64,000 bases of DNA, from the NCBI RefSeq assembly GCF_025698545.1, contig NC_068571.1, positions 43,123,733 to 43,187,732 of the forward strand. Reading direction: 5' to 3'. This document shows, one piece after another, positions 1-27,686 of the stretch. The DNA comes from Gossypium raimondii (Eukaryota; Streptophyta; Magnoliopsida; Malvales; Malvaceae). The notes beneath the pieces are model-generated. The model was not told where the DNA came from, did no database searches, and saw only the letters and a list, made by a program, of their open reading frames with translations. Position 1 is the first letter of the stretch. Every line of letters begins with the position of its first letter. A program made the position numbers and the translations under genes.

Positions 1-1216
1 TAATTTTCGACTTCGCCCTAGTTGAAAGGATTGCAATGTGATTTTTTTCTAGCAAGTACAATCACAAATACAAGTAATAAATAATACACGTTCAAAAAAC
101 TAAAATTATAATTAAGCATTATAAAACGCAACGAACTTAAAATTGAAATATCTTTCGAGCTGGAGTAAATCTAGAAAGAGCCCAAAGGCGTAGATAAAAG
201 GGTAGGAAGTGGACTTGGCCCCTAAAAATATTCACGAATAATTAAGAGAAGTAAATAAATAAATATTTTTTGAACATAATAAATAAATATTTTTTAAAAT
301 TGTGAATGATTAACATTTAATATCAAATTATTTATCATCTCTTTGTGATTTAATCGAGTAAATTAGATCTTTTTTATTTACTTTCATATGAGTGTACGTA
401 GCATCATGATTTTTAATTTTTATTTTTTTATACAATGTTTAGAATTACCCATAGTCTCTCCCAACCCTTTAATAAGAGGGTAATGTACTTCAGCGCACTT
501 GAATCTACGTCCTTTTGCACTTACAGCAATGCCAATATCAACTACGCCATAGTAAATTGGATGTTGTTAATACAAAAGAAAATACAAACTATTAAATAGT
601 GAATTAATAATGGTGAGATTTTTTATTGGATTTTTTGAGATTTACTAGCACCACATTAGCTAATGGTATTATGTGTTGTGGATTCTCACCTTAAATGCAC
701 TAACATTATTTGCTTAATTCCAAGGTAATTAGATTTTGTTAACAACTACAAAATCTAAAAAAATCAAGATATTAATTTAACATTAATATATTTATTTATT
801 AAAATTAACCACTAATAACCATGAATTTAAATGATAAATCTCACATATATAATTCTGTTTTGTGATTGGATAATTATAATATGATAAAATAAATGATAGG
901 TTAAAAGAAAATTTTAATAATTTAGAAAATAATTATAACATACTAAAGAAAAAAGTTAAATAAATTGGTTATATTTTATTTATTAGGAAAAACTGTTTTT
1001 AAGTAACAATACGAATAATACATGTTCAAACAATGCGCATTAGAATTAATCATTAGAAAATAAAATTGGGATGGTAATCAAAATATTCGAACCTAAATCA
1101 ATTGATATAGAGTGATTAAACTCGATGGTTGAATTGAATTATTTTAAATTTTTTAATAAATTATTTAATCAAACTGAATGAATTATTGAATTGACAAATC
1201 GGCGGTTTGACTAATT
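1..1216. other. AT-rich intergenic DNA, no gene seen
   Basis: No reading frame here resembles a protein. The sequence is strongly AT-rich. Around 480-550 there is a more mixed stretch that resembles degenerate dispersed-repeat sequence, but I cannot assign it. The region ends at the probable target-site duplication of the Mutator-like element (GTTTGACTAATT at 1205-1216). Confidence 0.6.
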
Positions 1217-1330
1217 TGGGGAATATACAAGAAAAAGTCATTTTTTTAAAAATTTACCGAAATGGGCCGATTTTTTGATTATTTACCTGAATGGTCCATT
1301 TTTCGGGAAATCGCATACGTCGGTAGCGAT
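1217..1330 (+). repeat. left terminal inverted repeat of the MULE
   Basis: Matches the reverse complement of 7665-7770 with scattered differences. It includes GATTATTTACCTGAATGGTC, the counterpart of GATTATTTACCGGAATGGTC read from the right end. GC-rich subterminal sequence with CGTCGGTAGCGATGTCGAG follows. It probably contains the transposase binding site and the promoter side of the PMD gene. Confidence 0.8.
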
Positions 1331-1366
1331 GTCGAGGTACATGGCGAGACATCGCGTCACGTCGGT

Positions 1367-1432
1367 AGCGACTGCGACGTGGAAGGAAATCGTGCCCTCA
1401 AGGACGCGATCTCCTTCCACGCCGCAGTCGCT
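1367..1432. repeat. subterminal hairpin inside the MULE left end
   Basis: Arms 1367-1392 and 1407-1432 are inverted copies of about 26 bases with three mismatches (AGCGACTGCGACGTGGAAGG against AGCGACTGCGGCGTGGAAGG). The loop is 14 bases. The arm is rich in CG dinucleotides, unlike the AT-rich surroundings. Confidence 0.75.
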
Positions 1433-1693
1433 ATTGACATGGACGCGATGTCCTCCGCGCGTGAACAGTACCCCAACGGTCAAAAATTTGACCATTGCCC
1501 CCCCAACGGTAAAAAAAAAAATATAAATACCCACCCATCCCTTTATTTTTTTTCACAAACAAATCATATCTAATTTTTCCTCTCTAATCCTCTCAATTTC
1601 CTTCCAAAATTCTCTCAAATCTATTTTTTAAAATAATTATAAATTTTTTTATATTTTTTAAAAATAATTTTAAATTTTTTTATATTTTCATCA

Positions 1694-3796
1694 ATAGCCG
1701 GATCATTGATTCGTCTTGATAGCAATCACATATCGGTGGAGCAAATGAAAATGGTAAGTATTAAATTTAATTTGTAATTATTATTTAAGATTTTTTTATT
1801 TAAGTATTTTTAGATAATTATTAATTTATTATTTGTTTTAAAAGTCTAAAGATCAGGTATTGGAATGCAATATCTGGAATACGCATGCTCCTCCATCACC
1901 GTTAGTAGAGAACTACCTACGGGAAACGGGTTTTTGGCACGTGACGACGGTAGGCCGGGGATGCAAGTTAGAGCCGAAACTGATCAGTGCGTTGATCGAG
2001 AGGTGAAGACCCGAGACGCACACATTTCATCTTCCATGTGGAGAGTGCACTATCACTCTAGAAGATGTCCATCTGCAATTGGGATTGCGGTGGCGGGCAC
2101 CCGATCACGGGTGCGCCCAATCTAGCAATTGGGAGGCGGTGTGCTACGAGCTTTTGGGCGCTGTTCCGGATAAAATGGATGAATGTAAGGTGGAGATGGG
2201 CTGGTTACGTGCCACCTTCCCCGATCCGAATGCAAATTCAACCGAAATTGAAAGAATCTGATATGTTCGATCATACATTCTTCAAATAATTGGAGGTTAT
2301 CTGATGCCCGACACGTCACGGAGTCGTGTACATCTAAAGTGGCTGCTAAAACTCGTTGATTTTAGAGGAGCCGGTGAATTTAGTTGGGGGTCTACCGTCT
2401 TGGCAACATTATATCGGGAGATGTGCGGGGCGACGCAACCGAGGAGAGCAAAAATCGGAGGTTGCCTGTCACTACTGCAATCATGGGCACGATTTCGCTT
2501 TCCATTTCTACGTCCTCGAGTGAACCACCCATATACATTCCCACTCGTAACGAGGTAAATTTTATATTACATTTTGGAATTGTTATGTAGATTTTGTAAG
2601 AATAAAAGTATGCTAAAGATTTATTTAATTAGGTGGAACCATCCGGCAAGTTATCGTGGATTACCGTCTGAACTTGAAGATATACGGCTTCTATTGGAGC
2701 AACGGTCGGAAGTAGAAGTAAGTATTATTGCAAATAGATATTTTCATACATTCGCTAGTGGATTGATATTTAGTATTTAGTATTTAGTATTATGTATATA
2801 ACTAATATTTCTATCATGTTTATATAGTTTCAATGGACACCATACGAGGATTTGGCAATTCGGGCAGTAATCCCGGAAGAGTTTTTACAAAATCCGAACG
2901 CTTGGCATGTGAAAGTGGTGTTGATCAACTATGCAACCGTGGAGGCCCACCAGACAGACAGACTGCTACGACAATTTGAATGTAGACAACTGATTCTTGC
3001 GGACCCTGAGGTGTTTGACGAGCACCACAAAATCGACCTTCGGCTATTAGGTACGGATTGACCTAGATACTGGTCCGAGTACACAGAAATATGGGAAAAT
3101 CGGCATGAATATCTACCTACTCGGGAAGAAATCATCGTTCTGGAGTTAGCGTGCGTTCCAGAATACATGCCATGGTTTAGGATCCATGGCAAGCCGTATT
3201 TACTTACGCCAGAGGAGAGGCAACGACAATTACGTCTCGGAAGGGAAAGGCGCGGGCCTCTAAATCCAAGACGAGAAGACTTTGAAGGCAGCCCCTCAAC
3301 GAGGCCTAGACAGTCACCCGGCGCATCATCAGCGGGCATGCAATCACCGGCCCCAACGAAATCACCGACGCAGTCACTTGACGCAGCAATTGAACAGATG
3401 ATACCTACGCAACCGCCTTTCCCTATGATGCCAGGTATGTTTCCTAGCCCTTATATGTACCCTAACCCTTACATGTATCCTTTTCCGAATACTATGACAG
3501 GTTGGAGCCAAATGCCCGGTTCAGCTCCATTTCCTGTTATGCCGAGCGGGCCGTCGATATCTAGGCCAGCGGCGCAGGAGGGATCGCAAGGGGGGCCGTT
3601 GGAGAGCTCTCCTTTTTACCAATCGCCAGCAACGTATGGCTTTCAAACACCGTCGCCGTTCATGATGCAAACACCTCCACATACACTATTCTTTGAAGGT
3701 GGATCATCGTCCCAAGTCCGACAATCAGATGCAGAACCGGAAGAACCACAATCACCACCAGAGGAAGAACAACCACCGCCGGAAGCTAGAGGATGA
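1694..3796 (+). pseudogene. transposon-borne plant mobile domain (PMD) gene, broken
   Basis: A PMD-family (MAIN/MAIL-like, aminotransferase-like) gene of the type carried by plant transposons. Four coding exons can be read: 1694-1753, 1845-2554, 2633-2717 and 2828-3796, all joining in phase at GT/AG borders. The first reads as SLIRLDSNHISVEQMKM. The PMD core includes FWHVTTVGRGC and [17 protein letters not shown]. The C-terminal part is Pro/Met/Tyr-rich with YMYPNPYMYPFPN, then a Gln/Glu/Pro tail. Defects: the expected ATG is ATA at 1694; the frame has stops TGA at 2004 (a Trp position), 2259 and 3059 (a Trp position); and small compensating deletions lie near 2090. PMD proteins such as MAIN and MAIL1 act in the nucleus in gene and transposon silencing. 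A role here is inference only. Confidence 0.8.
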
Positions 3797-3974
3797 GGAA
3801 TCCAGCGCGCAACTGTCGACGGCCGCCATGTGGAACCGAATCCCCCGGGCATAGACATTAATTACCGTATTTAAATTTATTATTTGATGTAATAAAATAG
3901 AAGTTTATTTGATGTAATACGCATAGAAATTTTTGAAGAAATTTTTGATATTATTTGATATAATAAAATAAAAA

Positions 3975-4165
3975 CCCTAATTTAATTGAAAACCCTAACT
4001 AACCTAACCTAACTTAATTAAAAACCCTAACCCTAACCTAACCTAACTAAAAACCCTAACCCTAAATCTAACCTAAATTAACCAAAAACCCTAACCCTAA
4101 CCTAAATTAACTAAAAACCCTAACCCTAACCTAAATTAACTAAAAACTCTAACCCTAACCGTAAC
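3975..4165. repeat. telomere-like CCCTAA/CCTAA array inside the MULE
   Basis: About 190 bases made of AAAACCCTAACCCTAACC-type units mixed with degenerate CTAACCTAAATTAACT spacers. The plant telomere repeat is CCCTAAA, and several units fit it exactly. The array sits between the 3' ends of the convergent PMD and mudrA genes and is absent from the second MULE copy at 21040-25510. Confidence 0.85.
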
Positions 4166-4480
4166 TATTAACACAATTTTTGGACTTAATAATTTAGTTT
4201 ATTTCATAAATTTTACTAACCATTAATACAATTTTTGGCTTAATAATTTTACATATTTTGATAATTTTACTAACCATTAACACAATTTCGGACTTAATAA
4301 TTTTAGTTTATTTGATAAATTTTACTAACCATTAACACAATTTTTTTGGCTTAATAATTTTACACAATTTTACATAATGTTAGATTTGGTAAAATGTTTT
4401 GACTGGTACTAAAAATTTGACAAGAAATTAAACTAATTTGATAATTTTACTAACAATTAATACAATTATCAATTAATAAT
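4155..4480. repeat. about 55-bp tandem repeats, AT-rich
   Basis: Units begin with the motif ATTAACACAATTTTTGG at about 4167, 4222, 4276 and 4331, with a degenerate fifth near 4447. Each contains CTTAATAATTTTA and ATTTTACTAACC. They lie between the telomere-like array and the stop codon of mudrA and may form its 3' region. Confidence 0.75.
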
Positions 4481-4513
4481 TGAAGAAAATATAATTTTTT
4501 TGTAAAATTACAT

Positions 4514-7141
4514 TCAGCTATTGCAATTAGGGCATGATCGACTTGTATGGCCTGGGTTCCTACACCATCCGCACAACTTCTGTTGACTGGATGTTTCTCG
4601 GATATCCATATTGTTCCGTATTCTAGTGGAGCAAGGTCGACCCTTTAGTTTGCGACACAATTCTCTATTCGGTAACAGCTTAAAACGAGCAAGAGATACG
4701 GGCGGCCACTTACGTTCATCTGGGACCGGTGGGAAAACGTGTCTCCATATGTTGTACATGTTTTCTAGTTTGTAGACTTCGTCCACATAACTCATCGGAT
4801 CCAGACGGAGTTTCTGACAAGCTGCAATAATATGAGCACATGGATAACGAAGTATATCAAACTTCCACAGTCACAAGTCTTGTTTCGCAAGTGTACACGA
4901 TATTGCCCGCCAACAACACCTTGGTGCGGTCTGTCAAACTCCGTCACGCGAAACCATAAATTGTCTCGATTGTGACACACTGTGTGCATGATGTTTGCCC
5001 TCGCCTTCGCCTTGTTAATTTCTTGAACTACTTTACTGCACCATACATGTCCACCCTGCATCTGGCCAGCATAAGTTGCTGCTCGCTTTGGAAATAGCAT
5101 CGCCAAACGGAAATATGTCTCTCGCACAACCGATGTTATCGGTAGATGGCGCGTTCCTTTAAGAACAGAATTTATGCATGTTGGTCACTTGTTGGTCACT
5201 TGTCGTCGTTCGCTCTTGGACGGATATTGCTTGTAGTAGTTCGAAGCAACGTGTCTTAGGCAATATCTATGGTGTGTGCGCTGCCACAAGCTTCCCTTTC
5301 GATCAAATGCAACTAATATACCGGCGCCCCGATCTGAAATAACACAGATATTAGGTTGGGGGCAGACATGCCTCCTTAACCTAGAGAGAAAGAAATCCCA
5401 GTCATCAGATGACTCCCCCGGTGTTATCGCAAATGCAATTGAAAGAATTCTCTCACCGCTGTCCTGTGCCACTGCAACCAATAGCCGATGAGTATACCTA
5501 CCGAACATGAAGGTACCGTCAATTTGTACCAACGGCTTGTAGTATGGAAATGCGTCTCGGTATTGCTTAAAGGTCCAAAATAGGCGTTTGAACACTTGGC
5601 ATCCACGTAGCAATCGGCCGTTGTAGTACGCATGTTCCGTTTCCAGGTCTGTGATGGCACCTGAGATGTATCTCTCTAGCACCTGACACCACTGCCATAT
5701 TTCATTATATGAGGCGTCCCACCCACTATGCATCTTCTCCAATGCCTTTTGCTTAGCTATCTAAGCCTTGCGGTAAGAGGGCGTGTACCTCATTTGGCTA
5801 CGGATATTGGTAATTATCACCGGCACTGAAGTCCTGGGATCTGCTTTTATCGTGGGCATTATCAAACTGGCTAACATAGCTGAATCCATTTTGGGATGAT
5901 CTTGTGAAACACCTACAGAGGGAGTACATTAAATAATGCAACATTGCAAAATAAAATTATTATTCAGATACATTCAATCCTGTACCTGCAGCACATATAT
6001 GTGGACCTTTGTACTTTTTTATCTCCCATAACCCTGTTCTTTTCCTTAACGAGGCAACGATTTTCCATGAACATGTGCCGTCTTGCACCGCACACTTCGC
6101 CTCAAACTTATCAGATTTTGATTTAACGACGTGGTAATTAACGCCGTTTTTGATGCTATGCTGTTTCAAAGCACCAATAAAACTATCCTTGTTGGTAAAC
6201 TGATTACCAACTTCAAGTTCACCGAAATCTACCCCCGAACTTGTACGATCGCGCAACCAGTGTGGTAGATCTGGAAACTCTAACGCATCATCTGCTGACA
6301 GATCGACATTATGCATGTGGGCTGGAGGTGAGTATGCTCTAAATCGTGGATTTTCTTCATCATCTGAACTCCTTTCAGCATCTTCACCTTCTATTGGAAT
6401 AGGCTCCGGTTCAGAAAATAATCCCACTTCTACACCATCCGGCCCGGGCTTTCGAGGTGGATCCACATTGGAGTCATCTTCTAACCCACAATCATCTGCA
6501 GCGTACGACGTCCCCTCACCGATTGACGTCGTAGGTAGTACGTCATCCCTTCTTCTGGGCATTTGATAACGTCCCCAATTGGATGTAGATTGCCATCCAC
6601 TAGAACTTGACACAGTTCCTCAGTACGTATTTCCAGCATCAAACGTCGAGCCACTGACGTACATGTCCCATCCACCAATAGAGTGTATTGCGGGGGATGT
6701 GCATTCGACACCTCTACCGAACATGGGCTGTTCCGTATTTTGTAACCCGCTAACCGAGTGTCGACCAGGGGTTGTGTATACATCTCGAACACCGGACGGA
6801 AGAACATCAGTTGGCGACGTAAATTGTACATATAACTCAATATAAGTTGCTCCACTAGCAAGATGAGTCTGCACCATTGCCTCCAAGCTACGAACACCTT
6901 TTATGTCGAACGAGTCATATGTCACCGGATCAACACAAGAACAAAACTGATACGTGATTGACAGAACTTTCATTGGCGTCGTTCCGAAGATTTTAAGCCT
7001 AATTCTTTTACGAAGTTCTGTCAAATCTATGTTTTGGTTAAATGACAGTCGCACCGTATTCTCCGACAAAAAAACAACACCATTCTCTGTGTGACAAACC
7101 TCACCATCGTAGTAAATAACATCACTAATACGTTCACTCAT
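4514..7141 (-). pseudogene. mudrA-type MULE transposase, broken
   Basis: Reads from ATG at 7141 down to a stop at 4514. Exon 1 is 7141-5986 and exon 2 starts at 5912, with a short GT/AG intron. In order: a variable N-terminal region starting MSERISDVIYY; a MuDR DNA-binding domain (GNQFTNKDSFIGALKQHSIK, ending near KKYKGPHICA); a MULE transposase domain (LVQIDGTFMFGRYTHRLL, then VISDRGAGI, which supply the first two expected catalytic Asp residues); a SWIM-type zinc motif (YRVHLRNKTCDCG); and a CCHC zinc knuckle (CGWCRNPGHTSRSC). Defects: TGA at 6620-6622 and TAG at 5761-5763, both at Trp positions; a deletion near 5180-5190 that removes the segment between the transposase core and the SWIM region, judged against the second copy; and a one-base frameshift near 4862-4867 inside the SWIM motif. 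Confidence 0.85.
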
Positions 7142-7242
7142 TTTGAAATTCTAACTTTCTTAGTCTCTCTAAATTTTTTCTGCTATGACATATGCATTCT
7201 AAGAACAGTTTCTGCCTAATTTATAGCCTCAGCCCAAACTTG

Positions 7243-7471
7243 CTACTGTAGCAAAATCGTGTCCACGAGGGCGCGATTTCACAATTTCTTCTCAAATTGC
7301 ATCCTGGTAGAAGCGATTTTATACTATTTGCTCAGAAACGTCAACAAAAAAATTATTTCTTACATGACCTACTGTAGCAAAATCGCGTCCACTAGGGTGC
7401 GATTTCACAATTTCTTCCCAAATAGCATCCTGGTAGAAGCGATTTTATACTATTTGACCAGAAACGTCAAC
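7243..7471. repeat. 126-bp direct duplication in the MULE right end
   Basis: CTACTGTAGCAAAATCG occurs at 7243 and again at 7369. About 105 bases are shared between the copies, including GCATCCTGGTAGAAGCGATT. The repeats lie upstream of the mudrA start on its promoter side, so they could be duplicated promoter elements. That role is inference. Confidence 0.85.
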
Positions 7472-7664
7472 TCGAAATAATTTATTTCGGAACATTTTCG
7501 GCCTAAAAAGCCTGACTCTAAACCCTAAAAGCCAAAAAAACCAAACGTGAAAAACGTGTCAAAATCGCTTCCCCAGGAACGCGCTACGTGGCAGTACACC
7601 GCGTCCACGTCAGCGCGACCTGCTGACGTGGACGCGATGTCCTGCCATATACCCTGACATCGCG

Positions 7665-7770
7665 TTGACGTGGGCGCAATTTCTCGAAAATAGACCATTC
7701 CGGTAAATAATCAAAAAATTGGCCCATTTCGATAAATTTTGAAAAAAAAGAGAGCTTTTTCTTGTAAATT
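7665..7770 (-). repeat. right terminal inverted repeat of the MULE
   Basis: Reverse complement of the left terminal repeat. It ends in CTTTTTCTTGTAAATT, then the target duplication GTTCGACTAATT at 7771-7782. The inner side holds GC-rich sequence such as TGACATCGCGTTGACGTGGG. Confidence 0.8.
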
Positions 7771-7994
7771 GTTCGACTAATTCAACCACTTCTGAAAACT
7801 TTAAAACAGAAAAAGTTTAAATAAAAATTCTATGACCTCAAATTATGTAAAAAATATTTAAATGAAAAAAATCAATATGGTCTGAAAAGTAATTAAGAAG
7901 AAATCTATGGGCGATATATTAAGTAAACGGCAGCGTTCCGACCCAGGTATTGTGGCATTGGCTGTTAAAAGTGTGGCCCACGTACGCTCTCACT

Positions 7995-10902: not shown

Positions 10903-13900
10903 ATGGAAGGAGACAACCTAGTAAGTAGTGAAATCCCAGTGACGAAAGCTGTTGAGGACACTGAAATTATTGCCGATGCGGTTAAGGTATTTGCATATCT
11001 CTACTTTCTGCAATTTTTATCAGTTTTATCTATTGAATACCGTTTAACTGAAAGCAATTCAGTCACTGTATTACACTCTTGAGTGTTTGAGGTTCACAAT
11101 TAGTTTATAATAATGGTAAAAAATTACAGGCCTCAAATGGAGACTTGCCGCTAGTAGAAAAGGAAGAAACCACCCTGGATGGAGAATTCATTAAAGTAGA
11201 GAAGGAAGCAGTAGAGATGAAAGATGGTTCTAATCCGGCTAATCCTGCTTCTAACCAAGACAATGAATCGACCATCGAAAGAAGCTTGAGCAATCCTGGT
11301 AGAGAACTACTTGAAGCTCAAGAAAAGACGAAAGAACTCGAGCTTGAATTGGAAAGAGTGGTTGGAGCATTAAAGCTTTCTGAATCAGAAAACAGAAAAT
11401 TGAAGGATGAAGTTGTGCTTGCTAAGGAGAAGTTGGATGAAGTGGGGAAAAAATATGAAGAACTCGATCTCAATCATAAGAAATTGCAAGAACAGATCAT
11501 TGAAGCTGAGCAGAGATACAGTTTACAGCTAAGCAATTTGCAAGAGGCTTTGCAAGCTCAAGAGACGAAACAGAAGGAACTCACTGAAGTAAAAGAAGCA
11601 TTTGATGGTCTCAATATTGAGATCGAAAACTCGAGAAAGAGGATGCAAGAGTTGGAGCAAGATCTGCAGAGTTCCGTTGAAGAGGCTCGGAAGTTTGAAG
11701 AACTGCACAAACAAAGTGGTTCACATGCTGAGTCTGAGACACAGAGGGCTTTGGAGTTAGAGAAATTGCTTGAAACTGTGAAACTTAGTGCAAAAGAAAT
11801 GGAAGATCAGATGGCTTCATTGAGGGAAGAAGTCAAGGGACTCTACGAGAAAGTTGCTGAAAACCAGAAAGTCGAGGCAGCACTTCAAAGCACAACAGCT
11901 GAACTTTCTGCTGCTCAAGAGGAGTTGGCGCTTTCGAAATCACTGGTGTCAGACTTGGAACAAAGACTTAGTTCAAAGGAAGCTCTTATAAATGAGCTGA
12001 CTGAAGAGTTGGAACAGAAAAAAGCTTCAGAATCCAAGGCAATGGAAGATATCTCAATTCTTGAAATTACTTTTGCTGCAACTAAAGAAGATTTTCAAGC
12101 TAAGGTTTCCGAGTTGGAAGATATCAAGTTGAAACTGGAAGAGGAAGTCAAAGCAAGGGAATTGGTTGAAGCCACACTGAAGGATCAAGAAGTCAATGTT
12201 TTGATTGCACAAGAAGAATTAAGTAAAGTTCTAAATGAAAAAGAAGCTTTGGAAACAGCCATTGCAGATCTTAACAGTAATGCAGCATTGTCGAAGGAGC
12301 TGTGCAACGAACTTGAAGAAAAATTGAAGCTTTCAGATGAGAATTTCAGTAAAACCGATTCTCTATTGTCCCAGGCTTTGTCTAATAATGAAGAGCTTGA
12401 ACAGAAACTGAAATCTCTTGAAGAGCTACATAATGAATCCGGAGCTGCTGCAGCAACTGCTACTCAAAAGAATCTTGAACTGGAGGATATACTTCAGGCT
12501 TCAAATGAAGCTGCAGAAGATGCAAAATCGAAACTGAGGGAGCTTGAGGCACGTTTTATAGCAGCCGAGCAAAGGAATGTGGAGCTTGAACAACAGTTGA
12601 ATTTGGTAGAGTTAAAAGGCTTTGAATCCGAGAAAGAACTGAAGGAATCTTCAGAGAAAATATCTGAACTTACCAACAAGTTGGGGGAGGTCATGGAAGA
12701 AAAGAATCAGTTGAACAATCAAATGCAGGAATATCAGGAGAAGATAAATCAGCTCGAATCAGCTCTAAATCAGTCAACAACACAGAACTTGGAGCTCGCG
12801 GAAGAGTTGAAGGTTGCTTTAGAGAGAAGTGCTCACCATGAGGACAGAGCTAATATGAGTCATCAACGCAGCCTTGAACTAGAGGATCTGTTCCAGACAT
12901 CTCATTCCAAATTAGAGGGTACTGACAAAAAGGTCAACGAGTTGGAGTTGTTACTTGAAGCAGAGAAGTACAGGATTCAGGAACTCGAGGAACAGATAAG
13001 CAATTTAGAAAAGAAATGTGGAGATGCAGAAGGCGAGTCTGTTATGTACTCTGATAAGGTATCCAAACTCGCTTCTGAACTTGAGGCATTCCAAGCTAGA
13101 ACATCGAAACTTGAAATTGCACTACAAATGGCCAATGAGAAGGAAAAGGAATTGACCGAGTGCTTAAATTTGGCAACAGATGAGAAGAAAAAGCTAGAAG
13201 AGACATCGCAAAGCTCCAATGAAAAGCTTGTGGAAGCTGAAAATCTGGTGGAAATCTTGAGAAGTGATTTAAATCTGACACAACAGAAACTGGAAAGCAT
13301 TGAGAATGATCTTACGGCTGTTGGTTTGAGAGAAAGTGAGGTTATGGAAAAGCTCAAATCTGCTGAAGAGCAACTAGAGGAACACGTTAGAGTATTAGAG
13401 GAAGCTAAGGCGAGAAACTCAGAGCTCCAGTCATTGCATGAAACTTTAACAAGGGATTCAGAACTTAAACTCCAAGAAGTAACGGAAAATTTCAACAGCA
13501 AGGATTCTGAAACGAAATCTCTGTTCGAGAAATTGAAAACATTTGAAGATCAGATAAAGGTGTATGAAGAACAAGTTGCTCAAGCAGCTGGACAGTCTGC
13601 GTCTTCAAAAGAAGAATTGGATCAGAGCTTACTGAAATTGGCTTCTTTAGAAAGCACAAATGAACAACTCAAAAGCAAGATATCGGAGTTCGAAAATAAA
13701 GCTCTTCAGTCTTCCTCAGAGAATGAACTTTTGGTTCAGACAAACATTCAGTTGAAGGGCAGAATTGATGAGCTTCAAGAATTGCTTAATTCAGCTCTTT
13801 CTGAGAAGGAATCAACTGATCAAGAGATTGCTTCTCATATGAGCACGATTAAAGAATTATCTGACCAGCATACGAAGGCCTCAGAACTTCGAGCAGAAGC

Positions 13901-15509
13901 CGAATCACGAATTGTGGAAGCAGAAGCTCAATTACACGAAGCTATTGAGAAATACTCAAAGAAAGAATCAGAATCCAACGATCTGATTGAAAAGTTGAAT
14001 GCGCTTGAAGTCCAAATTAAAACATACAAAGAACAAGCTCATGAAGCATCCACAATTGCTGTATCTCGACAAGTAGAGGTTGAAGAGACTCTTTCCAAAT
14101 TAAAGCAGCTTGAAAGCTTTGTCGAGGAACTGCAAACCAAGTCGGCACACTTTGAAAAGGAGAGTGGAGGACTTGCTGAGGCAAATTTTAAGCTTACTCA
14201 GGAACTAGCCGAATACGAGTCAAAACTCGGTGATTTGGAAGGCAAATTGACCGCAGCCTTGACCGAGAAGGATGAAACAGCTGAACAACTTCACATTTCG
14301 AAGAAAGCTATTGAAGATTTAACACAGAAGATTACTTCTGAAGGGCAGAGTTTACAATCTCAGGTTTGTTGAAAATTAGTATAATGGTTTTTTTCTATTG
14401 CGAGTTCGATTTATAAAATTGGTTTCTTATTCTTTTTAATGTTACAGATTTCTTCACTAATGGAGGAGAATAACTTGCTCAACGAAACACATCAGAGCAC
14501 AAAGAAAGAACTTCAATCTGTAATATCACAGCTTGAAGAACAATTAAAAAACGAAAAAGAAAATGAAGAATCTCTAAAATCAGAGATTAACAATCTCAAG
14601 GCTGAGATTGCGGAGAGTTCCTTACTGCAAACTCATGTCAAAGAACTTGAAGAACAGTTGGTGACGGTTGAAGCTCAATTGAAAGAAGAGGTGCACTATA
14701 GTCTGTTAATAAAGAAGGATACTGATCTTTGACAAGTTTTCTAATAATTCGGTTTCTTGCTCGTAGGTTGAAAGTGTTAAGACAGCCGCCTCTGTAAGAG
14801 AAGCTGAATTAACTTCGAAATTAGAGGATCATGCACAAAAGATTAGTGATAGAGATGTTATCAATGAACAAGTGGTTCAACTTCAACGAGATTTACAACT
14901 TGCTGAAACAACGATCACTCAACAGGTTCAACATTTATAAAAAAGAATAGACATTTTTTTCGATCATTTTGCCATATGATGAATTGATGAATAACACCAA
15001 GTTCCAAAATCAACTTTTGTCAACAGAAGGATGCAGATTCTCAGAAAGAGATGGATCGAGAAGCAGCTTTAAAACATTCCATCGAAGAGCTCGAAGCCAA
15101 AAACAAAGAAGCATTACACCTCAAGAAACAAGTCAAAGAGTTGGAAGATAAATTGCAAGAAGCTGAAGCTAAAATGAAGGTCAGTTCATATTCAAGATCA
15201 TTTTCTCTACATTTTCATGAGAAAGTATTAAGTTGCTTACCGCCAAATCATGTGTTGCAGGTTGCGAGCAGTGCAGCCGAAGCAAAGGATAGTGTAGAGG
15301 TGAATTCCAGAGATATTGATGGATTAACATTTTCAACACCAACAAAACGAAAGAGTAAGAAAAAGTCGGAAGCCGCTTCCGTACAAGTTGCTTCCTCTTC
15401 TTCATCAGCTACCCATACTGAGGCTTCTCCTTTGACTAACTTAAAGTTCGTTTTCGGAGTAGCCCTCGTGTCAGCGATCATTGGTGTTATTCTTGGAAAG
15501 CGTTATTAA
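10903..15509 (+). CDS. PICC-like tail-anchored coiled-coil protein
   Basis: Six coding exons: 10903-10986, 11130-14363, 14448-14690, 14767-14925, 15027-15179 and 15261-15509. All borders are GT/AG and all exons are in phase 0, giving 1,373 residues. The protein has an acidic N-terminus starting MEGDNLVSSEIPV. About 1,200 residues of Glu/Lys/Leu-rich heptad coiled coil follow, then a basic Ser-rich linker (TKRKSKKKSE). A single C-terminal membrane segment, FVFGVALVSAIIGVILG, is followed only by KRY. This fits a tail-anchored ER protein with a cytoplasmic coil. The best match I know is Arabidopsis PICC (At2g32240; relative PICL At1g05320), an ER coiled-coil protein linked to the response to microbial patterns. 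Coiled coils resemble one another, so the assignment rests mainly on the tail, the length and the gene neighbours. The start is the first ATG after the leader intron acceptor. Confidence 0.85.
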
Positions 15510-16586: not shown

Positions 16587-19566
16587 TCATATCTCCTCCT
16601 TGACCCCCTTCAATCCATTGAAAATATCTAAATCTGTAAACCCTGCACATGGACCACATGTATAAGTTTACTTCATCTCCGAAAACTTCTATATACTAGG
16701 AAATATAACACAGAAAACTATACTTACTTGTACTCAAGAAGTCTTCGGCTTCATCACTTGGAGGTGTTAAAGTTGTTCTGTTACCAACAGGGGGATCAAG
16801 TGACTTCCAATCTGAACTCTCAAGATTGTCCGGAGATACCTCAGTATCGGCAATCCAATCTTCAAGAATATCTTTGTTGTTAAATGCAAGGGGATCCAGG
16901 GAATCCTTTTCTTGTTTTTGAAGAACCCTGCAAAAGAAATTAGTGGAAACTCAAAATTTTATCACGACCCTGTTACTGTGGACTTCCTAAAGATTGAAGT
17001 TAGGTTTGGTGTTTTGACTTACATTTGTCTCAGATATAAGTTGTATTGAACAAAGACGAGATCGCTAAGCCTTTGACGCTCGAGAAAATTTCTTGTGTTG
17101 TGTATTTCTTCGATGGAGATCTTGCTTGGTTTATACCCAATTGAACTGCAAGTTTGACTGAGAATGCGGATGGCCAAACGTTGCAAATTCGGGCAACCTC
17201 CACCGTATATAGACCACCATTCACCTAATAATATGATGAATATGACAGACAATGCGATAAGATCACCATTGTAACTTAGATACGTATCTCTCTCCTACAC
17301 TTTTAATCATTAATTCCGAAGTAAAAATATATAATAGTTCGAAAAACAGCAGATTAGTTTTCTTATAAAGCATATCGTAAATCTATGAAAATCATACCGT
17401 AACTTTCTTCAGGATGAAAAGATAACAAATGAAGGCCCCTGTACTAGAAGTCAATTTGCATTTTGCCCCTTTTACTAAAAAAAAGGGGGCAAATTAGTCC
17501 ATGAACGTTAAATTAAAGAGTAAATCAGGCCTTTTTGTTAAAAATTCATCCATTTGTACTGTTAATAGTAGAAATAGATGGAATTTTAACAGAAGGACCA
17601 GTTTGCTCTTTGATCTAATATACAGGGACTAATTTGCCAAATTTTTTAGTAGAGGGGGCAAAATACAATCCAACTCTTAGTACAGGGGTCTCCACGGTAC
17701 TTTTACCCCTAAAGTTCTAAATAAGCAAGAAATAGCAATATGGCGGTTCCGATCTATGCAAGGATACTTACCGGGAAGTAAATTATCTCGGGCTCTGACT
17801 GCCATTGGCCTTCCTAGATCTCCCGTAGCATTCTTGTATAAATTTATTTCTCTAACAACTTGGTCCTGGATGTTTGTATCAGGAACTAACCTCTCTATGC
17901 TATCAAATACGGATGATAGGATATCATTGTGTATATGTTCCTCGGTATTGTAGAAAAGTTTCGGGTTAAGGAAGAAACCCGCAGCGTAAAGAGGGAGATG
18001 CCGTTGTTGTTCCCATCTATTATCTATAATATTCCAATAGACCATATAATCATCTTGCTTGACAAGTTCTTTCTTAATCGTTTCTTTTGCTCTGTAAATC
18101 CCGGCATAAACATATCCCATTGCGGATCTTTTCTTGCTACCAACTATTTCTAGGACTCGTAAGAGGGGATACGTTATACGAGCAATCAACATACATGAAT
18201 TCCAAAACGAACTATTGTTAACAATATCCGACATTGCTTGACCCCCAGGTTTCTTTGCATACGGACACTCGAGCCAATCCTGAGAATTAACCATAGCTTG
18301 TAAATTTAGCTTGAGATCAGCCATTCTTTTCAACGTTGAAAAGTTCGTAGCAAAACAAGTAAGTGCTGGTTCCACAACGTCATTCCCAGAAGTAAATTTT
18401 CTTATCATATTCAAAACCGAACTCTGATTGTAGATGAATCTTGTCAGAGATTTAGCTTGTTCGATTGTTTCGTTTATCCACTCGAGGTTACTGAAATCTT
18501 GAAGCATCAAATCGACACAATGTGCTAAACAAGGAGCCCAATAAAGAGAAGGAAATGATTCCATCAACCTTTTCCCGGTAAAAAGGTATGGCTCTTCACA
18601 ATTAGTGATTACTTGCACAACTTTCTCGGATCCTACTTCTTCGATCACCTGTTTAAGCAATTCAAACAAATAATCTGCGGAATAAACAGCATGTGATGCA
18701 TCCACGGATTTCATAAACACAGTTGCTTGAGGACAATAAACCAAAAAACTTAACAAAACTCTCCCATTTTTCGTTCTACATTGCTCAACTATAATCGAAC
18801 ACCCTGTCTTCCCCCACATTGCTTTATTCCTATCGATATCATCCTTTACTTCCTCAATTACATTCTTCAATATCCATCCCCGAAGATCGTTACAAGACGG
18901 CGGTACAACCCCAGATCCTCCAGAAGCAATACCATCAATCATCGGTTGGAAACAAACCGAGTTCACCGCATCTAAATTAACCCCAATATCATACAAGAAT
19001 CTCCCTATGGCCATATGAATCGGATTCTCTCCCCCATTTGGAACCAATGCAAGATCGGTTTTCACACAAGGATAGTTACTTTCAATCAAATTCCAATCCC
19101 GACCCCGACCCCGACCTCGTTTCCTACCTCTACCAACTTTACTAACCACATTAGAATCACCTTCCAAAGTGTTCAAAACCGAAATCGGTTTAATCCCAAA
19201 GTTCATATCATCATGAGAACCCAAATTTTCGACCTCACCACCGATATTCGGATTACTACTACTACTACCACAAGCTAGTAATTTCGGAATCAATTTTTGT
19301 TTCTTATCTTGTTTAACTAAAATCCCATTCAAACTTTCTTGCATAACGGACCTAACCCCTTGAGGAACTTGTTCACAAATTGGTCCCTGACCTTTTCGAC
19401 CTGCTAAATGTTCTTTAAACCTATGAATCCCACCCCCTTTAAACAATTTCCCACAATACATACATTTAATTTGTAATCTTTCACCATTTTTAAACACTTC
19501 ACAATGGTTCCAAGCAGGATCTTGTTTTTGCCTTGTAATTGATATAGGAACCAAATTCAACTCCAT
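16587..19566 (-). CDS. hAT-transposase-derived BED zinc-finger protein, probably domesticated
   Basis: Four coding exons on the minus strand: 19566-17772, 17224-17023, 16927-16728 and 16642-16587, joined at GT/AG borders, giving 750 residues. A BED-type zinc finger sits near the N-terminus (Cys35, Cys38, His48, His53 in KCMYCGK and HRFKEH). A basic RGRKRGRGRGR stretch near residue 145 looks like a nuclear signal. A DUF659/hAT transposase core follows (about 230-480). The hAT dimerisation domain starts with GEWWSIYGGGCPNLQRLAIR across the first intron. Two hallmark catalytic Asp positions are changed. The usual SDGWTDR block reads IVEQCRTKNG, and the usual VTDNA block reads ITNCEEPY. An intact multi-exon frame with a lost active site suggests a host gene, likely DNA-binding. 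Relatives I recall are Arabidopsis At3g22220 and At4g15020. Confidence 0.85.
17412..17708. mobile_element. foldback MITE in the first intron of the hAT-derived gene
   Basis: Same family as the elements at 47553 and 48548. The left side reads AGGCCCCTGTACTAG and the right side CTTAGTACAGGGGTCTCCAC, then GGTACTTTTACCCC. Inside are paired motifs such as GGGGGCAAATTAGTCC and GGACTAATTTGCC. The left terminus is degenerate and no target duplication was resolved. Confidence 0.7.
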
Positions 19567-20626: not shown

Positions 20627-21039
20627 TTTTATTATAAATTATCATTTAAATTTGTTTAATCATATATACTTCTAAAAACATTTGTACCTAGTATTTTTAT
20701 TAAATTTAAAAATAAAATATTAATACTTTTGTTTCACTTTTTTAAGAAAATATAAAAGAAATTCATTTATGTTTTTTCTTTTCTCTTATTTCATTTTATT
20801 AATGAGGTAGAATTAATGCCCTTAATTAGCTGAAATGTCAGTTAACCTAGGCTCTATGATAAAACTTAAAATATAAGCTTGGTAATTTTAAATATATAAA
20901 ATATATAAATATTAATCCAAAAATATTTTTAATATTTTTTAAATAGTAAAATCTACTTTCTAAAATTGTTGCCTTAGCCTCAAGCTTAAGCTTGAATTTT
21001 TTTAAAAATTAATATTTAAGCCCGACTAATTTACCTATA
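20627..21039. other. AT-rich spacer left of the second MULE
   Basis: No gene seen. 20641-20715 repeats the sequence left of the neighbouring foldback element: CTAGTATTTTTATTAAATTT against CTAGTATATTTAAAAAT. Confidence 0.4.
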
Positions 21040-21526
21040 AAGGTCCATTTCCAAGTATATTTACGAAAATGGACCAATTTCTATATTATTTACCGGAAAG
21101 GGCCGATTTTGGCAAAACGCGTCCACGTAGGAGCTTTTTAGGGTGAAATTTCCAGCAAATTGCACCCTTGGGGAGCGTTTTTGCCATGTCAGCACAAAAC
21201 GCGCTGACGTGGACGCGCTTTGCTGACGTGACAAAAATGCTCCCCCAGGGGCATGTTTTGCCCCGTGTTTTTGTCCCCTACAATTATTTTTTTGACCGTT
21301 GGGGGGTCCAACGGTAAAAGAAAAAAAGAAGTATAAAAACCCCCTCCCTCCTATTATTTCACACAAAATTTAGCAAAAAACTCTAAATTTCTCCCTAAAT
21401 TTCTCAAAGCTCTCAAATTTCTCCTTAAATTTCTCAAAACTGTCTTTAATTAATTATTTCCTTTAATTTTCTTTCTAAATTAGTATTATTTTTTTATAGT
21501 TTTAAAAATATTTGATCGTGTTAGCA

Positions 21527-23589
21527 ATGACCGGGGACTTAATTCATCTCGATCATAAACATATCCCCGTCAAACAAATGAAAATGGTAAGGGTTAATTT
21601 TAATTTTTGAATATTATTTAATATTTTTTTCATTTATGTAATTTTAATTAATTTGTATTTTATATTTTTTTATAACAGTCTGTAGATCGGGTGTTACAAT
21701 GTTATATTCGTAATATGGCTGGTCCTCCATCACCGTTGATAGAAAATTACTTGAGGGGAGCGGGTTTTTGGCACGTGGCCACTATAGGCCGGGGTTGCAA
21801 GTTGGACCTGAAACTCATCAGCGCGTTAATAGAGAGGTGGAGACCTGAGACACACACATTTCATCTTCCATGTGGAGAGTGTAACATCACTTTGGAGGAC
21901 GTGCAATTACAATTGGGATTGCCGGTGGATGGGTCCGCACTCACCGGGTCCATTCAATCTGCTGATTGGGGAGCCGTATGCTACGAACTTTTGGGTACGA
22001 TTCCAGATAATATTTACGGAGGTCGGATCGAGATGGGCTGGTTACGAGACATATTCCCGGAGCCGAGGAATGATTCGACTAAAGTAGAAAGAATATGATA
22101 TGCTTAGGCATACATCCTTTAGATGATTGAAGGTTATTTGATGCCGGACTTATCACGAAACCTCGTACATCTGAGGTGGTTGTTGAAACTCTTTGATTTT
22201 AGAGCAGCTGGCGAATTTAGTTAGGGTTCTGCCGTGTTGGCAACATTGTACCGGGAGATGTGCAGGGCGACGCCACCAAATAAAGCCAAAATCAGAAGTT
22301 GTCTATCACTACTACAATCATGGGCTCGGTTTTGCTTTCCATTTTTACATCATCGAGTGAACCACCAATATACATTCTCACTCATAACGAGGTAAATTTT
22401 TTATTTGATTTTACAATTATTACATAGATTTAAAATAAAATTGTATGCTAAAAATTTATTTAATTAGGTGGAACCATTCAGCGAGTTATGTTGGAATACC
22501 TACTGCTCTTGAAGATATACGGCTTCTATTAGACCAACAGTAGGAAGCGCAAGTAAGTATTAAATAATATATATACATAAAATAGTCGTTTCATATTTAG
22601 TATTTAGTATTATGTATATAACTAATATTTTTATCACGTTCATATAATTTCAATGGACACCATACGAGGATCCGACAATTCGGACAGTAATTACAGATGA
22701 ATTCTTTCAAAATCTGAACATTTGACATGTTAAGGTCCCATTGGTTAACTATGCTATTGTCGAGATGCACCGGACGGATAGAGTGTTGCAGCAATTTAGA
22801 TTTTGACAACCGATTTCCAAGGCACCTGAGGTGATCGATAAAGAGCACAAAGTTGACTTGCGGTAAATGAATACAAATTGGCCAATATTCTTCTCGGAAT
22901 ATATCGAAATTTTAAAAATCAATATGATCATATACCTATTCCCAAACTAATCATCGTCCCAGAGTTAGCGTGCGCGCCAGATTACACGCCATAGTTTAGG
23001 ATCAATAGCAAGCCATATTTGTTATTGAAAGAGTAGAGACGTCAGCAAATCCGTGTCGAAAAGGAACGACGGGGCCCTTTAAATCCAAGGAGAAGGGATG
23101 ACGACACGGGCCCATCAACAGTGCCCACACAATCACCGCGCCCAATGCCTCAACCGATAACACCTATAGCACAGCCCCTTCAGATTATGCCAAGTGCATA
23201 TCCTAGCCCTTATATGTATTCTAACCCTTATATGTTTCCTTTTTCCCAATCCTATGCCAGGTTGGAATACATGTCCCGGTGCATCTCCTTTTTCGATGAC
23301 TCCGACTCAACCGACGATATATAGGCCATCGTCACCGGAGAGGTCAAACGAGGCACCGTCGGGGAGCTCATCTCATTACCAATCCCCATCGCCTTATGGG
23401 ATTCAAATACCTCCGCTGTGGGTGATGCAAACACCTCCACATTTTTTATTCTATCAAGTTGGATCATCCTCCCAACACCCACAACTGGAGCAACCACAAC
23501 CCCCACCGAAATCTGAACCAATGAGGAACCCAGCATGTAATCGTCGACCACCCCCATGTGGCACTGATTCCGATCGGCACATACATTAA
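21527..23589 (+). pseudogene. PMD gene remnant in the second MULE
   Basis: Starts with an intact ATG at 21527 (MTGDLIHLDHKHIPVKQMKM, exon 21527-21586). Exon 2 begins at 21679 and reads through the PMD core ([37 protein letters not shown]) to TGA at 22096. The homologous frame continues beyond it with further stops, including TAG in the SWG motif near 22225, then exon 3 near 22468-22553 and exon 4 from about 22650. Exon 4 has several stops and a frameshift. The Pro/Tyr-rich tail (YMYSNPYMFPF) survives near 23210-23250. Compared with the copy at 1694 it keeps the start codon but has more internal lesions. Confidence 0.75.
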
Positions 23590-23763
23590 TTTTTTTAATA
23601 TATTTGTAAAAATTGATTTTATATTGTTTCATTTAATAAAATAAAAGTTATTTTTAATATTTTAATAGTAAATTATTTTTATATTTTTAATAAAATAGAA
23701 GTTCTTTTGAATAAGGCGCAATAGAAATAATGCAACATAGTTTCATTATAGCAATTATCAACT

Positions 23764-25495
23764 ATTTATGTTTGGACATGATCGAATTGTATGACCTGGG
23801 TTCCTACACCATCTGCACAACTTCTGTTGGTTCGTTCTTTCCCGGATATCCATATTATTACATATTTTACTCGAGCAAGGTCGACCTTTGGGTTTGCAAC
23901 GCAATTCTCTATCCGGTAACAACTTAAACGGAGTAAGCGATACAGACAACCACTTACGTTCATTTGGGACTAGTGGAATACGTGTCTCCACACATTGTAC
24001 ATGTATTATATTTTGTACACTTTGTCGACATATCTAATGGGATTCAAACAGAGAATCTAACAAGTTGCAATTGCATGAGCGCATGAATAACAAAGTGCGT
24101 CAAACGTCCCACAGTTGTAAGTCCTATTTATCAGGTGTACACAATATTGCTCGCTGATAATATATTGGCGTGGTCTGTCAAACTTCGTCACACGAAACCA
24201 TAGGTTGTCGCGATTGTGACACATTGTGTGCATGGTGTTGGCCCGCGCATTCGCCTTGTTAATTTCTTGCAATACCTTCCAGAACCATACATAACCTCCC
24301 TGTATTTGGCCTTTATAACTCGCTGCTCACTTTGGAAATAGTGCCGCCAAACAAAAATATGTCTCTCGCACAACCGAGGTTATCGGCAAATGAAATGTTC
24401 CTTTTAGAACAGAATTTATACACTTAACTAGGTTTGTGGTCATATGACCATATCGTAGGTTGTCATCATATGCTTGTGTCTACTGTTCGAAAGGTATGTT
24501 ATAGAGGTAGTTTGCGCCTTGATCGTTAACTGAACGCAAAATCCCCAACATCTCATGAAAATAATCCTTATTGATCTCGTACCCTGCCAATATAAGTTGA
24601 TAGTGAAAATTACATACCACTATTCCATTCAGAATAAATTGAATATTACAAATGAAATTATATTAATAGAGATTAAATACCAATGTTGGTTATTTGTTGT
24701 TCAGTGGTAGATCGATATTGCCCGTAGTAGTTGGACGCAACGTGCTTTAGACAATACGAATGGTGTATACGATCCCATAGGCTTCCCTGTCGCTCAATTG
24801 CGGCTAGTATTCCAGTGCCTCGATCCGATATAACGCAGATATCAGGTTGGGGGCATACATGCCTCTTTAACCTAGAAAGAAAGAAATCTTAGTCATCACT
24901 TGACTCCCCCGATGTTATTGCAAACGCAATTGGAAGGATTCTCCCACCGTCATCCTGTGCCACAGCTAGCAATAGCCTATGGGTATATCTACCATACATA
25001 AATATACCGTCAATTTATACCAATGGCTTACAGTACACAAATGCGTCCCAACATTGCTTAAAGCTCCAGAACAAACGTTTGAACACTTGGCATCCACGGA
25101 GCAATCGGTTGTTGTAGTACGCAGGGACCGTTTCAAGGTATGTTATGCAACCTGGGATGTACCTCTTCGGCACCTGACACCACTGTCACACCTCATTATA
25201 TGAAGCGTCCCACCCATTATGCATCTTTTCCAGCGCCTTCTGCTTAGCTATCCAAGCCTTGTGGTAAGAAAGCGTGTACCTCAATTGGCTATGAATATTG
25301 GCAATTAAGACCAACATAGAAGTCCTAGGATCCGCCTTCAACATCGGTAGTATTAAGCTAGCTATCATACTTGAATCCATTTTGGGATGATCTTGTGAAA
25401 CACCTATCAACGAAGTACGTTAAATAATGCAACATTAAGTAATAACACTATTATTCAAAAACTCTAAACACCCAGTGATACTGTACCGGCAACAC
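23764..25495 (-). pseudogene. mudrA transposase remnant in the second MULE
   Basis: Read on the minus strand it holds GVSQDHPKMDSSMIASLILP, then KMHNGWDASYNEV, a transposase core with RYTHRLLLAVAQDDGGR and VISDRGTGI, and the zinc knuckle CRWCRNPGHTIRSC near 23770-23820. In-frame stops occur at Trp positions (after SYNEV and in the SDDWDFF motif) and at a Gln position (VQIDG). The N-terminal DNA-binding exon is missing. It keeps the segment that is deleted in the first copy, near 24400-24580. Confidence 0.75.
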
Positions 25496-25510
25496 AGGTA
25501 TGTGGAAAAA

Positions 25511-27133: not shown

Positions 27134-27541
27134 TCAAAACCTAAGTTTAGTAAAGAACCACCTGTTCTTCCCCGTCTTGAACCTCTCTTGAAACCTCTCT
27201 TTAGTGGCCTTACAAGCCGCCACTTTCTTGTCCTTGGTCTGGAGAGCATCGGCGTTGACCACGTCTTTCAAATCCACGTCGAGGGTGTAGCGCGTGGGCA
27301 TCAGGTGCTGGTAATTCACTAGCTTGACGAAGCATTTCACGCGCGATTTCTTCGCCGTTTTCTTGGCCGAGTCCTTGCGGATGACTTTGCTCGGGTACTT
27401 CTTTATCCCGGCAACCAAACAATGGCCGTAAGGGCGGTCGCGTGTGCCTTCGTCAAAGGACCTAACGATCACGGCTTTGCGACCGGCGTATCGGCCTTGG
27501 AGGACGATCACGGCCTTGTTCGGTTTTAGAAACTTCACCAT
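27134..27541 (-). CDS. RPL27: 60S ribosomal protein L27 (eL27)
   Basis: A 135-residue protein in one uninterrupted exon: [20 protein letters not shown] at the start, [20 protein letters not shown] in the middle and [12 protein letters not shown] at the end. This is the full length expected for plant eL27, a basic protein of the large cytosolic ribosomal subunit with an N-terminal KOW-type fold. The whole chain is recognisable with no break. The coding sequence is GC-richer than its surroundings, as is usual for highly expressed genes. Plants normally carry several copies of this gene (Arabidopsis has three), so which paralogue this is cannot be told from sequence alone. Confidence 0.97.
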
Positions 27542-27602
27542 TGCGACGACAGCGGCGGCGATGGATGTGATTGTCGAAAATGATAAACTTGAAATTGAGG
27601 TG

Positions 27603-27686
27603 TATATATAATAGTACGAGTGACTGAAAACCCTAGCGCTTTATTGATGAATATTAGTGGGCTTCTTTTATGAATAAATTTGGGCC
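27603..27686 (-). promoter_or_regulatory. eL27 promoter: TATA box, telo-box and site II motifs
   Basis: Upstream of the minus-strand start there is TATATATA (27603-27610), a telo-box AAAACCCTAG (27627-27636) and two TGGGCY site II motifs (27658-27663 and 27681-27686). The combination of telo-box and site II is a known signature of plant ribosomal protein promoters, bound by Myb-like and TCP factors. Confidence 0.7.

Follow-up and report, generated by a model that had tools for sequence, protein, structure and literature searches.

A plant mobile domain gene convergent with mudrA as a probable selected component of a MUDR-like Mutator family in Gossypium raimondii

Introduction

A stretch of 64,000 nucleotides from Gossypium raimondii (assembly GCF_025698545.1, contig NC_068571.1, positions 43,123,733 to 43,187,732 of the forward strand; hereafter the window) contains two Mutator-like elements (MULEs), termed W1 and W2. 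A distinctive characteristic of W1 is that it carries two genes in convergent order, a four-exon plant mobile domain (PMD) gene on the plus strand and a mudrA-type transposase gene on the minus strand. It is highly probable that PMD is the element's second gene and that it was under selection. Purifying selection on PMD, together with its divergence in step with mudrA, implies that the PMD protein had a function for the element, and it probably aided the transposon. What that function may have been is less certain. An anti-silencing or regulatory role is put forward tentatively, by analogy with known proteins.

Two genes inside one pair of terminal repeats

W1 is a MULE by its transposase domains, its bounding terminal inverted repeats (TIRs) and a target duplication in the 8-11 bp range. 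Its ends are best set at 1218 and 7774 on the basis of the family terminus GGG.AATTTACC..., which opens most family copies, either in this form or as a near variant. The original prediction had placed a MULE with a spliced PMD gene and a convergent mudrA at 1217-7770; the TIRs and both genes stand, and the ends shift to those given above. The TIR arms share 82.4% identity over 142 columns including gaps, and the flanking duplication (GACTAATTT and GACTAATTC) agrees at 8 of 9 bases, or at 10 of 11 in an alternative frame.

The PMD exons of W1 lie at 1694-1753, 1845-2554, 2633-2717 and 2828-3796. The stop codon common to the relatives is at 3859-3861, and a frameshift makes the PMD of W1 end earlier. 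Splice borders were aligned over 21 copies (L018, which is without exon 1, was excluded), and all GT/AG borders are kept in 15 of them; L013, L016, L022, L026, L027 and W2 have each lost a single border. Two pieces of the W1 protein match the Pfam PMD model PF10536 (E 2.2e-12 and 2.8e-19; 47.3 and 70 bits against a cut-off of 34.9), as do the PMD of W2 (83.4 bits) and exon 2 of a further copy, L035 (180.7 bits). The mudrA gene consists of three minus-strand exons that run from 7141 to 4514. DBD_Tnp_Mut (PF03108, 1e-10) and MULE (PF10551, 9.1e-13) both score above cut-off, the SWIM match falls below it (E 0.0017; 18.3 bits against 19.6), and a zinc knuckle is recognised by eye. Pfam gave no match on the exon-4 piece of the W1 PMD or on one mudrA piece.

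Both genes of W1 are broken, and W1 is a dead copy. The damage to PMD comprises three in-frame TGA codons, three frameshifting indels and ATA in place of ATG. In mudrA one TGA and one TAG stand in frame, 152 bases of exon are deleted and the frame is shifted once. W2, which spans about 21022-25506, is likewise dead; similarity ends near 25506, and the element retains a single TIR arm, the left one. A second element repeating the layout had also been predicted, and W2 bears this out for the order of PMD and mudrA; its right TIR and the N-terminal exon of mudrA are gone.

Two lesions recur among the 21 aligned PMD copies. The same TGA occupies codon 160 in eight copies spread across the tree (W1, W2, L013, L015, L016, L020, L026 and L027); L024 has arginine there, and our guess is repeated CpG decay of CGA. 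An identical 1-base deletion just past the start codon, in exon 1, is found in six ungrouped copies (L010, L011, L012, L019, L021 and L026). A hotspot, gene conversion or a spreading crippled lineage may account for it.

Recurrence of the layout in the genome

The 750.8-Mb assembly (281 contigs) was searched with one PMD exon (best 150 of 1815 candidates scored), one mudrA exon (best 150 of 3249) and the TIRs (best 40 of 1197); the PMD matches lie on 13 large contigs. Among the 149 PMD matches outside the window, twenty close copies ranking in the top 30 were read, and four loci (L043-L046) were added, picked for two listed exons without stops. PMD converges with mudrA, whole or in part, in 20 of the first 20 copies and in 4 of the 4 later ones, 24 of 24 altogether, with mudrA reduced to part of its first exon in L017 and L025. 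The genome search by TIRs and PMD exons that the original prediction had proposed thus yields many other elements with both genes between TIRs. Both TIRs lie inside the fetched stretch in 17 of the first 20 copies and in three of the later four. In L027 the TIR match lies 37 bases past the fetched end; L018 has no TIR and L024 has one.

Perfect target duplications of 8-11 bp occur near the ends in 15 of the 17 copies with both ends, under a search that tolerated an offset of a few bases. L012 has 8 of 9 bases, and L010 has no duplication at the search threshold. In L009 the reported duplication lies 12 bases out; in its flanks a duplication of 9 bases can be read right at the ends. Perfect duplications are also present at L043, L045 and L046, which were added later. 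Random placement served as a control and produced perfect matches of at least 9 in 2 of 500 trials.

This genome is very rich in PMD-like sequences (6035 candidates at first look, of which the best 117 were scored), so a MULE could in principle have come to lie next to a PMD gene of the host or to a PMD encoded by a Gypsy element. This explanation by chance neighbourhood is refuted by TIRs and target duplications that enclose both genes and by the orientation of the pairs, and its probability is negligible. Among the matches listed, all 49 PMD/mudrA pairs within 10 kb are convergent, and none is divergent or tandem. Random placement (200 trials) gave a mean of 0.545 pairs within 10 kb and a maximum of 3. 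When the limit is raised to 100 kb, seven further pairs appear (1 convergent, 3 divergent, 3 tandem), which resemble chance neighbours. With a broader PMD list (112 added rows, the first five, unspliced or host-like, and later partial rows being left out), at least 57 of the 150 listed mudrA matches have a convergent PMD within 10 kb.

Purifying selection and co-inheritance

It is observed that PMD was under purifying selection while the lineage was active. Between W1 and W2, the ratio of nonsynonymous to synonymous divergence (dN/dS) of PMD is 0.31 at a synonymous divergence (dS) of 0.76, and 0.26 in codons 20-450; that of mudrA is 0.24 at a dS of 0.62. Divergence is highest at third codon positions in both genes (0.237, 0.199 and 0.358 for the three positions of PMD; 0.177, 0.132 and 0.278 for mudrA). 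The corresponding ratio of uncorrected proportions (pN/pS) is 0.42 for PMD against a randomised mean of 0.81 and minimum of 0.63, and 0.31 for mudrA against a mean of 0.73 and minimum of 0.53 (300 randomisations each). A dN/dS test had been suggested for PMD; its outcome is constraint alongside mudrA, not neutrality.

These values bear on the view that a host PMD was captured once, in the style of Pack-MULEs, and has been carried as a passenger with no function. MULEs do capture genes, and every aligned copy of this family is broken. Against this, the W1-W2 dN/dS is low, the pN/pS of PMD lies under all 300 randomisations, all splice borders are retained in most copies, and the layout persists in a distant element (L047) at 44% PMD identity. 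Contradicted by the selection result, a neutral passenger is rejected as very improbable. W1 is not itself a Pack-MULE, since mudrA is present.

Gene trees of PMD and mudrA were built from the same 16 rows; L015, L016 and L026 were left out as too partial, and L017, L018 and L025 are without a mudrA row. Both trees unite L020 with L023 and L021 with L028, and join these four (support 83/84 for PMD and 95/92 for mudrA). Both also recover L009, L011, L019 and L024 as a group, that group plus L027, and, weakly, W1 with L013. As most supported splits agree, PMD and mudrA have mostly travelled together.

Distant loci and the diversity of PMD genes

The convergent layout extends beyond the close copies. 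In L047, PMD exon 2 is 44% identical to that of W1, the main pieces of mudrA are 35-44% identical and the N-terminal one 26%; the two genes are convergent, an inverted repeat lies outside both, and no target duplication was found. Among the distant PMD loci, L047 is the only one of three with a convergent mudrA. Over all 29 PMD loci read over several kb (the 20 and the 4 copies, the two in the window, L041, L042 and L047), convergent order is found in 27.

L041 (G000:C3:59205500-59214000) belongs to a second large PMD group and has no mudrA match nearby. Its inverted repeat, examined as a possible MULE end, is AT-rich and without exact target duplication. This locus might be a non-autonomous or Pack-MULE-like derivative.

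A PMD tree restricted to sequences of this genome, without a named MAIN/MAIL row, separates the MULE and spliced PMDs from four unspliced ones with support of 100/100. Three of the latter (L029, L030 and L031, on G000 C1, C3 and C13) have the whole domain open, form a clade with the broken L032, and are probably host genes.

An intergenic array with telomere-like motifs

Between the two genes of W1 lies a tandem array of units that carry telomere-like AAACCCTA boxes (Table 1). An array of this kind is present in 24 of the 25 copies of the W1 subfamily (L009-L028, L043-L046 and W1), with 6-61 boxes in each. In the 17 copies counted first, all have 6-38 boxes between the stop codons in one orientation, against shuffle means of up to 0.24. 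Seven of eight further close copies have 15-61 boxes, and L025, whose intergenic part is deleted, has none. The flanks of 16 copies contain only 6 boxes in 45.9 kb. Boxes most often lie 28 or 29 bp apart (132 of 292 spacings), and in six copies run through the tandem repeat finder the number of units ranges from about 5 to 31.

W2 and L047 have zero AAACCCTA boxes between their genes. As W2 is without boxes, the array is regarded as a trait of the W1 subfamily. In an alignment anchored on the AT-rich half, conservation of the telomere half of the unit does not clearly exceed that of the remainder and gives no signal of selection. Elsewhere in the window, short matches to the AT-rich intergenic repeats of W1 occur at 37759-37994.

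Likeness of the PMD to DUF1985

VANC, the anti-silencing protein of Arabidopsis MULEs, whose targets are dynamic tandem repeats, has two domains, and DUF1985 is one of them (Hosaka et al. 2017). A stop-free piece of the W1 PMD (exon 2, 2262-2552) shows a sub-threshold likeness to this domain (E 0.0027; 18.1 bits against a cut-off of 35.1). Exon 2 of L033, L035, L036, L037, L039 and L040 also matches, in six cases of six (E 0.00078-0.24), and the match always covers DUF1985 positions of about 74-140, against the same part of the PMD. No DUF1985 match is given by the piece of W2 or by the N-terminal piece of W1, both of which stop short of the matching part. DUF287 gave no match at E 1 among the PMD proteins profiled. 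A genome search found no DUF1985 proteins; its controls were silent too, so that absence is not shown. Since the six matches are mutually related, the likeness is best taken as a lead to possible distant kinship. Membership in VANDAL/VANC was considered and rejected, as DUF1985 stays below cut-off and DUF287 is absent.

Relation to known systems

The convergent arrangement cannot be counted as new, for antisense PMDs were already published. Dupeyron et al. 2019 (PMC6446971) describe PMD, which in our reading means plant mobile domain, in plant MULE groups 42 and 45-50. It is antisense for most of group 50 (MUDR), often in group 49 and sometimes in groups 47 and 48. Gossypium raimondii is among the hosts of group 50, and Table 1 of the same paper assigns PMD and/or a DUF to half of the VANDAL members. 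In W1, PMD is antisense to the transposase, as in group 50, and its layout is a well-supported case of an already published kind. Groups 47-50 (Monocots, MDR, MUDRAVI2 and MUDR) resemble it in a SWIM-type mudrA, TIRs, duplications of mostly 9-10 bp and a PMD open reading frame (ORF). This is a likeness by description and not by tree placement, and the published accounts, as excerpted, are without a selection test, a gene-tree comparison or an intergenic array.

Other MULEs are similar in part. The mudrA and mudrB genes of maize converge. MuDR is alike in holding two genes of opposite direction within its TIRs; it is unlike in that mudrB is not described as a PMD, and this comparison too is by description only. 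Abermu MULEs of barley and other species (type II) combine a transposase with an opposite-strand ORF before the 3' TIR, which is not described as a PMD. The first report of a PMD in a MULE is said to be that of Babu et al. in 2006. VANDAL elements (Hiun) share with W1 an extra gene, dynamic noncoding tandem repeats (a formal likeness only) and the weak DUF1985 likeness. They differ in that VANC has DUF1985 and DUF287 proper and that VANDAL TIRs are degenerate. According to Ikeda et al. 2017 (PMC5418596), the earliest description of the PMD concerned a rice MULE, and grasses and Amborella have PMD-transposase fusions. These too are MULE-borne, whereas the PMD of W1 is spliced, stands apart from the transposase and lies on the strand opposite to it.

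In the open-licence literature searched, the excerpts hold no report of selection on an antisense PMD or of a telomere-motif array in MULEs, and no paper was found in which DUF1985 and the plant mobile domain occur together. As far as searched, the new elements are thus the evidence for selection and co-inheritance, the telomere-motif array and the PMD-DUF1985 likeness.

Features of the window

Coordinates of the features of both elements are collected in Table 1. Outside the elements, the window includes what we take, by appearance, to be host genes, namely a long coiled-coil protein (11091-15509), a BED-type or hAT-like protein (17677-19566), a ribosomal L27-like protein (27134-27640) and a PAT1-like protein (44546-46681). 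Two near-alike open frames on the minus strand (29171-29566 and 34785-35117) are likely a piece of a dispersed repeat.

Table 1. Features of W1 and W2 in the 64,000-nucleotide window
Feature	Position	Strand	Remarks
Left target-site duplication, W1 (GACTAATTT)	1209-1217	.	8/9 bases equal to 7775-7783
Left TIR, W1	1218-1360	+	82.4% identical to right arm; resembles family TIRs
PMD gene, 4 exons, pseudogene in W1	1694-3861	+	Splice borders compared across 21 copies; its own pieces match PF10536
Tandem array, units of about 29 bp with telomere-like AAACCCTA boxes, between the genes	3989-4165	+	Tandem repeat finder; 6 boxes
Second intergenic tandem repeat, unit of about 54 bp	4162-4364	+	Tandem repeat finder
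mudrA-type transposase gene, pseudogene in W1	4514-7141	-	Pfam; stops, deletion, frameshift
126-bp repeat, about 1.8 copies, between mudrA start and right TIR	7243-7471	+	Tandem repeat finder
Right TIR, W1	7630-7774	-	
Right target-site duplication, W1 (GACTAATTC)	7775-7783	.	
Left TIR, W2	21022-21140	+	62-70 bases match the W1 TIRs at 74-76%
PMD gene, W2, pseudogene	21527-23589	+	10 in-frame stops; PMD E 2.3e-23
mudrA, W2, 3' part	23761-25506	-	N-terminal exon and right TIR missing

Discussion

Based on these observations, the best overall explanation, held with moderate confidence, is a two-gene MUDR-like family whose selected PMD may oppose host silencing. W1 and W2 are decayed members of a large MUDR-like Mutator family, the complete form of which holds a convergent mudrA and a four-exon PMD inside one TIR pair. 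The PMD is a long-standing resident that diverged jointly with mudrA. Promoters in the TIRs would drive both genes inward, as is suggested by MULE biology, and the most likely function of the PMD protein would be to keep the element expressed against host silencing, by analogy with VANC, MAIN and MAIL1.

The anti-silencing or regulatory role is the more tentative part of this explanation. It may well be correct, yet we stop a little short of favouring it, even though the likeness to DUF1985 has raised its standing slightly. Such a role for MULE PMDs has been speculated upon before (Ikeda et al. 2017). The host proteins MAIN, MAIL1 and PP7L, which are likened to the PMD of W1 by domain and not by named sequences, and which are chromosomal genes unlike it, control gene expression and the silencing of transposable elements.

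The same host proteins bring in another possibility. As transposable elements are repressed by host PMD proteins, the PMD of the element could enter the MAIN/MAIL1 pathway by imitation and damp the element, with less damage to the host. Elements are usually selected for copying themselves more, not less, and self-limitation of this kind is quite improbable.

A different role would be that of a transposition helper, in which PMD would act in excision, integration or transposase assembly rather than in silencing, as is supposed of maize MURB. In MuDR the second gene, of opposite direction, is apparently required for integration, and PMD and mudrA are under constraint of similar order. On the other side, the host PMD homologues act in expression and silencing, and nothing resembling a DNA-processing enzyme was seen; this last point is thin, as only a 79-aa piece of the PMD was compared with PDB structures, without a meaningful match. 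A helper role is considered somewhat unlikely.

Several observations weigh against the explanation that we favour. dN/dS does not separate an anti-silencing protein from a MURB-like integration helper, and the selection signal rests mainly on the single deep comparison of W1 with W2. The randomisation placed the same substitutions base by base and ignored CpG context. Within the W1 subfamily, where dS is near 0.12, the median dN/dS is higher (0.56 for PMD over 190 pairs, 0.47 for mudrA over 153 pairs), which is expected if much of the divergence post-dates insertion. The trees conflict over L012, which falls outside an 11-row clade for PMD (96/95) and beside L020, L023, L021 and L028 for mudrA (94/90). 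It sits on very short branches in the mudrA tree, and exchange between copies or noise could account for the conflict. Two of the distant PMD loci, L041 (8.5 kb read) and L042 (8 kb read), have no mudrA match. The DUF1985 scores of the spliced or MULE-type PMDs, 11.8-19.9 bits in seven of seven, are all below the cut-off of 35.1, and none of the three unspliced PMDs has a match. The DOWN motif of Arabidopsis PMD targets (CATGCAGTTT, the MORC1 promoter form, and its 9-base cores) occurs in none of 16 copies.

The state of the copies belongs with these points. All 21 aligned PMD frames have at least one in-frame stop. Of the aligned mudrA frames 18 of 19 have stops, and the remaining one, L021, has seven frameshifting indels; L024 served as frame reference, so that its own frameshifts are invisible. 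None is intact in either set. L043, L044 and L045 are broken too in a piecewise reading, and the PMD of L046 matches only in shifted pieces. Intact single exons are present at some other loci, and no intact element was found among the aligned copies, in a search that was not exhaustive.

A broader reading, which is offered as distinctly unlikely, is that antisense PMD and vanC are distant branches of one old transposon-borne anti-silencing gene family, to which MAIN and MAIL1 are related. The array of the W1 subfamily would then be the site of action of the PMD protein or of a recruited telobox factor. The DUF1985 likeness lifts this reading slightly above the standing that its array part had alone. 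If the kinship of PMD and VANC were confirmed, it would join two known MULE systems.

In a genome of this kind, many PMD sequences are transposon genes rather than host genes. If the PMD is a selected part of the element, MULEs and the host proteins MAIN and MAIL1 would share a domain on opposing sides of one contest, and the proposed anti-silencing role would become directly testable.

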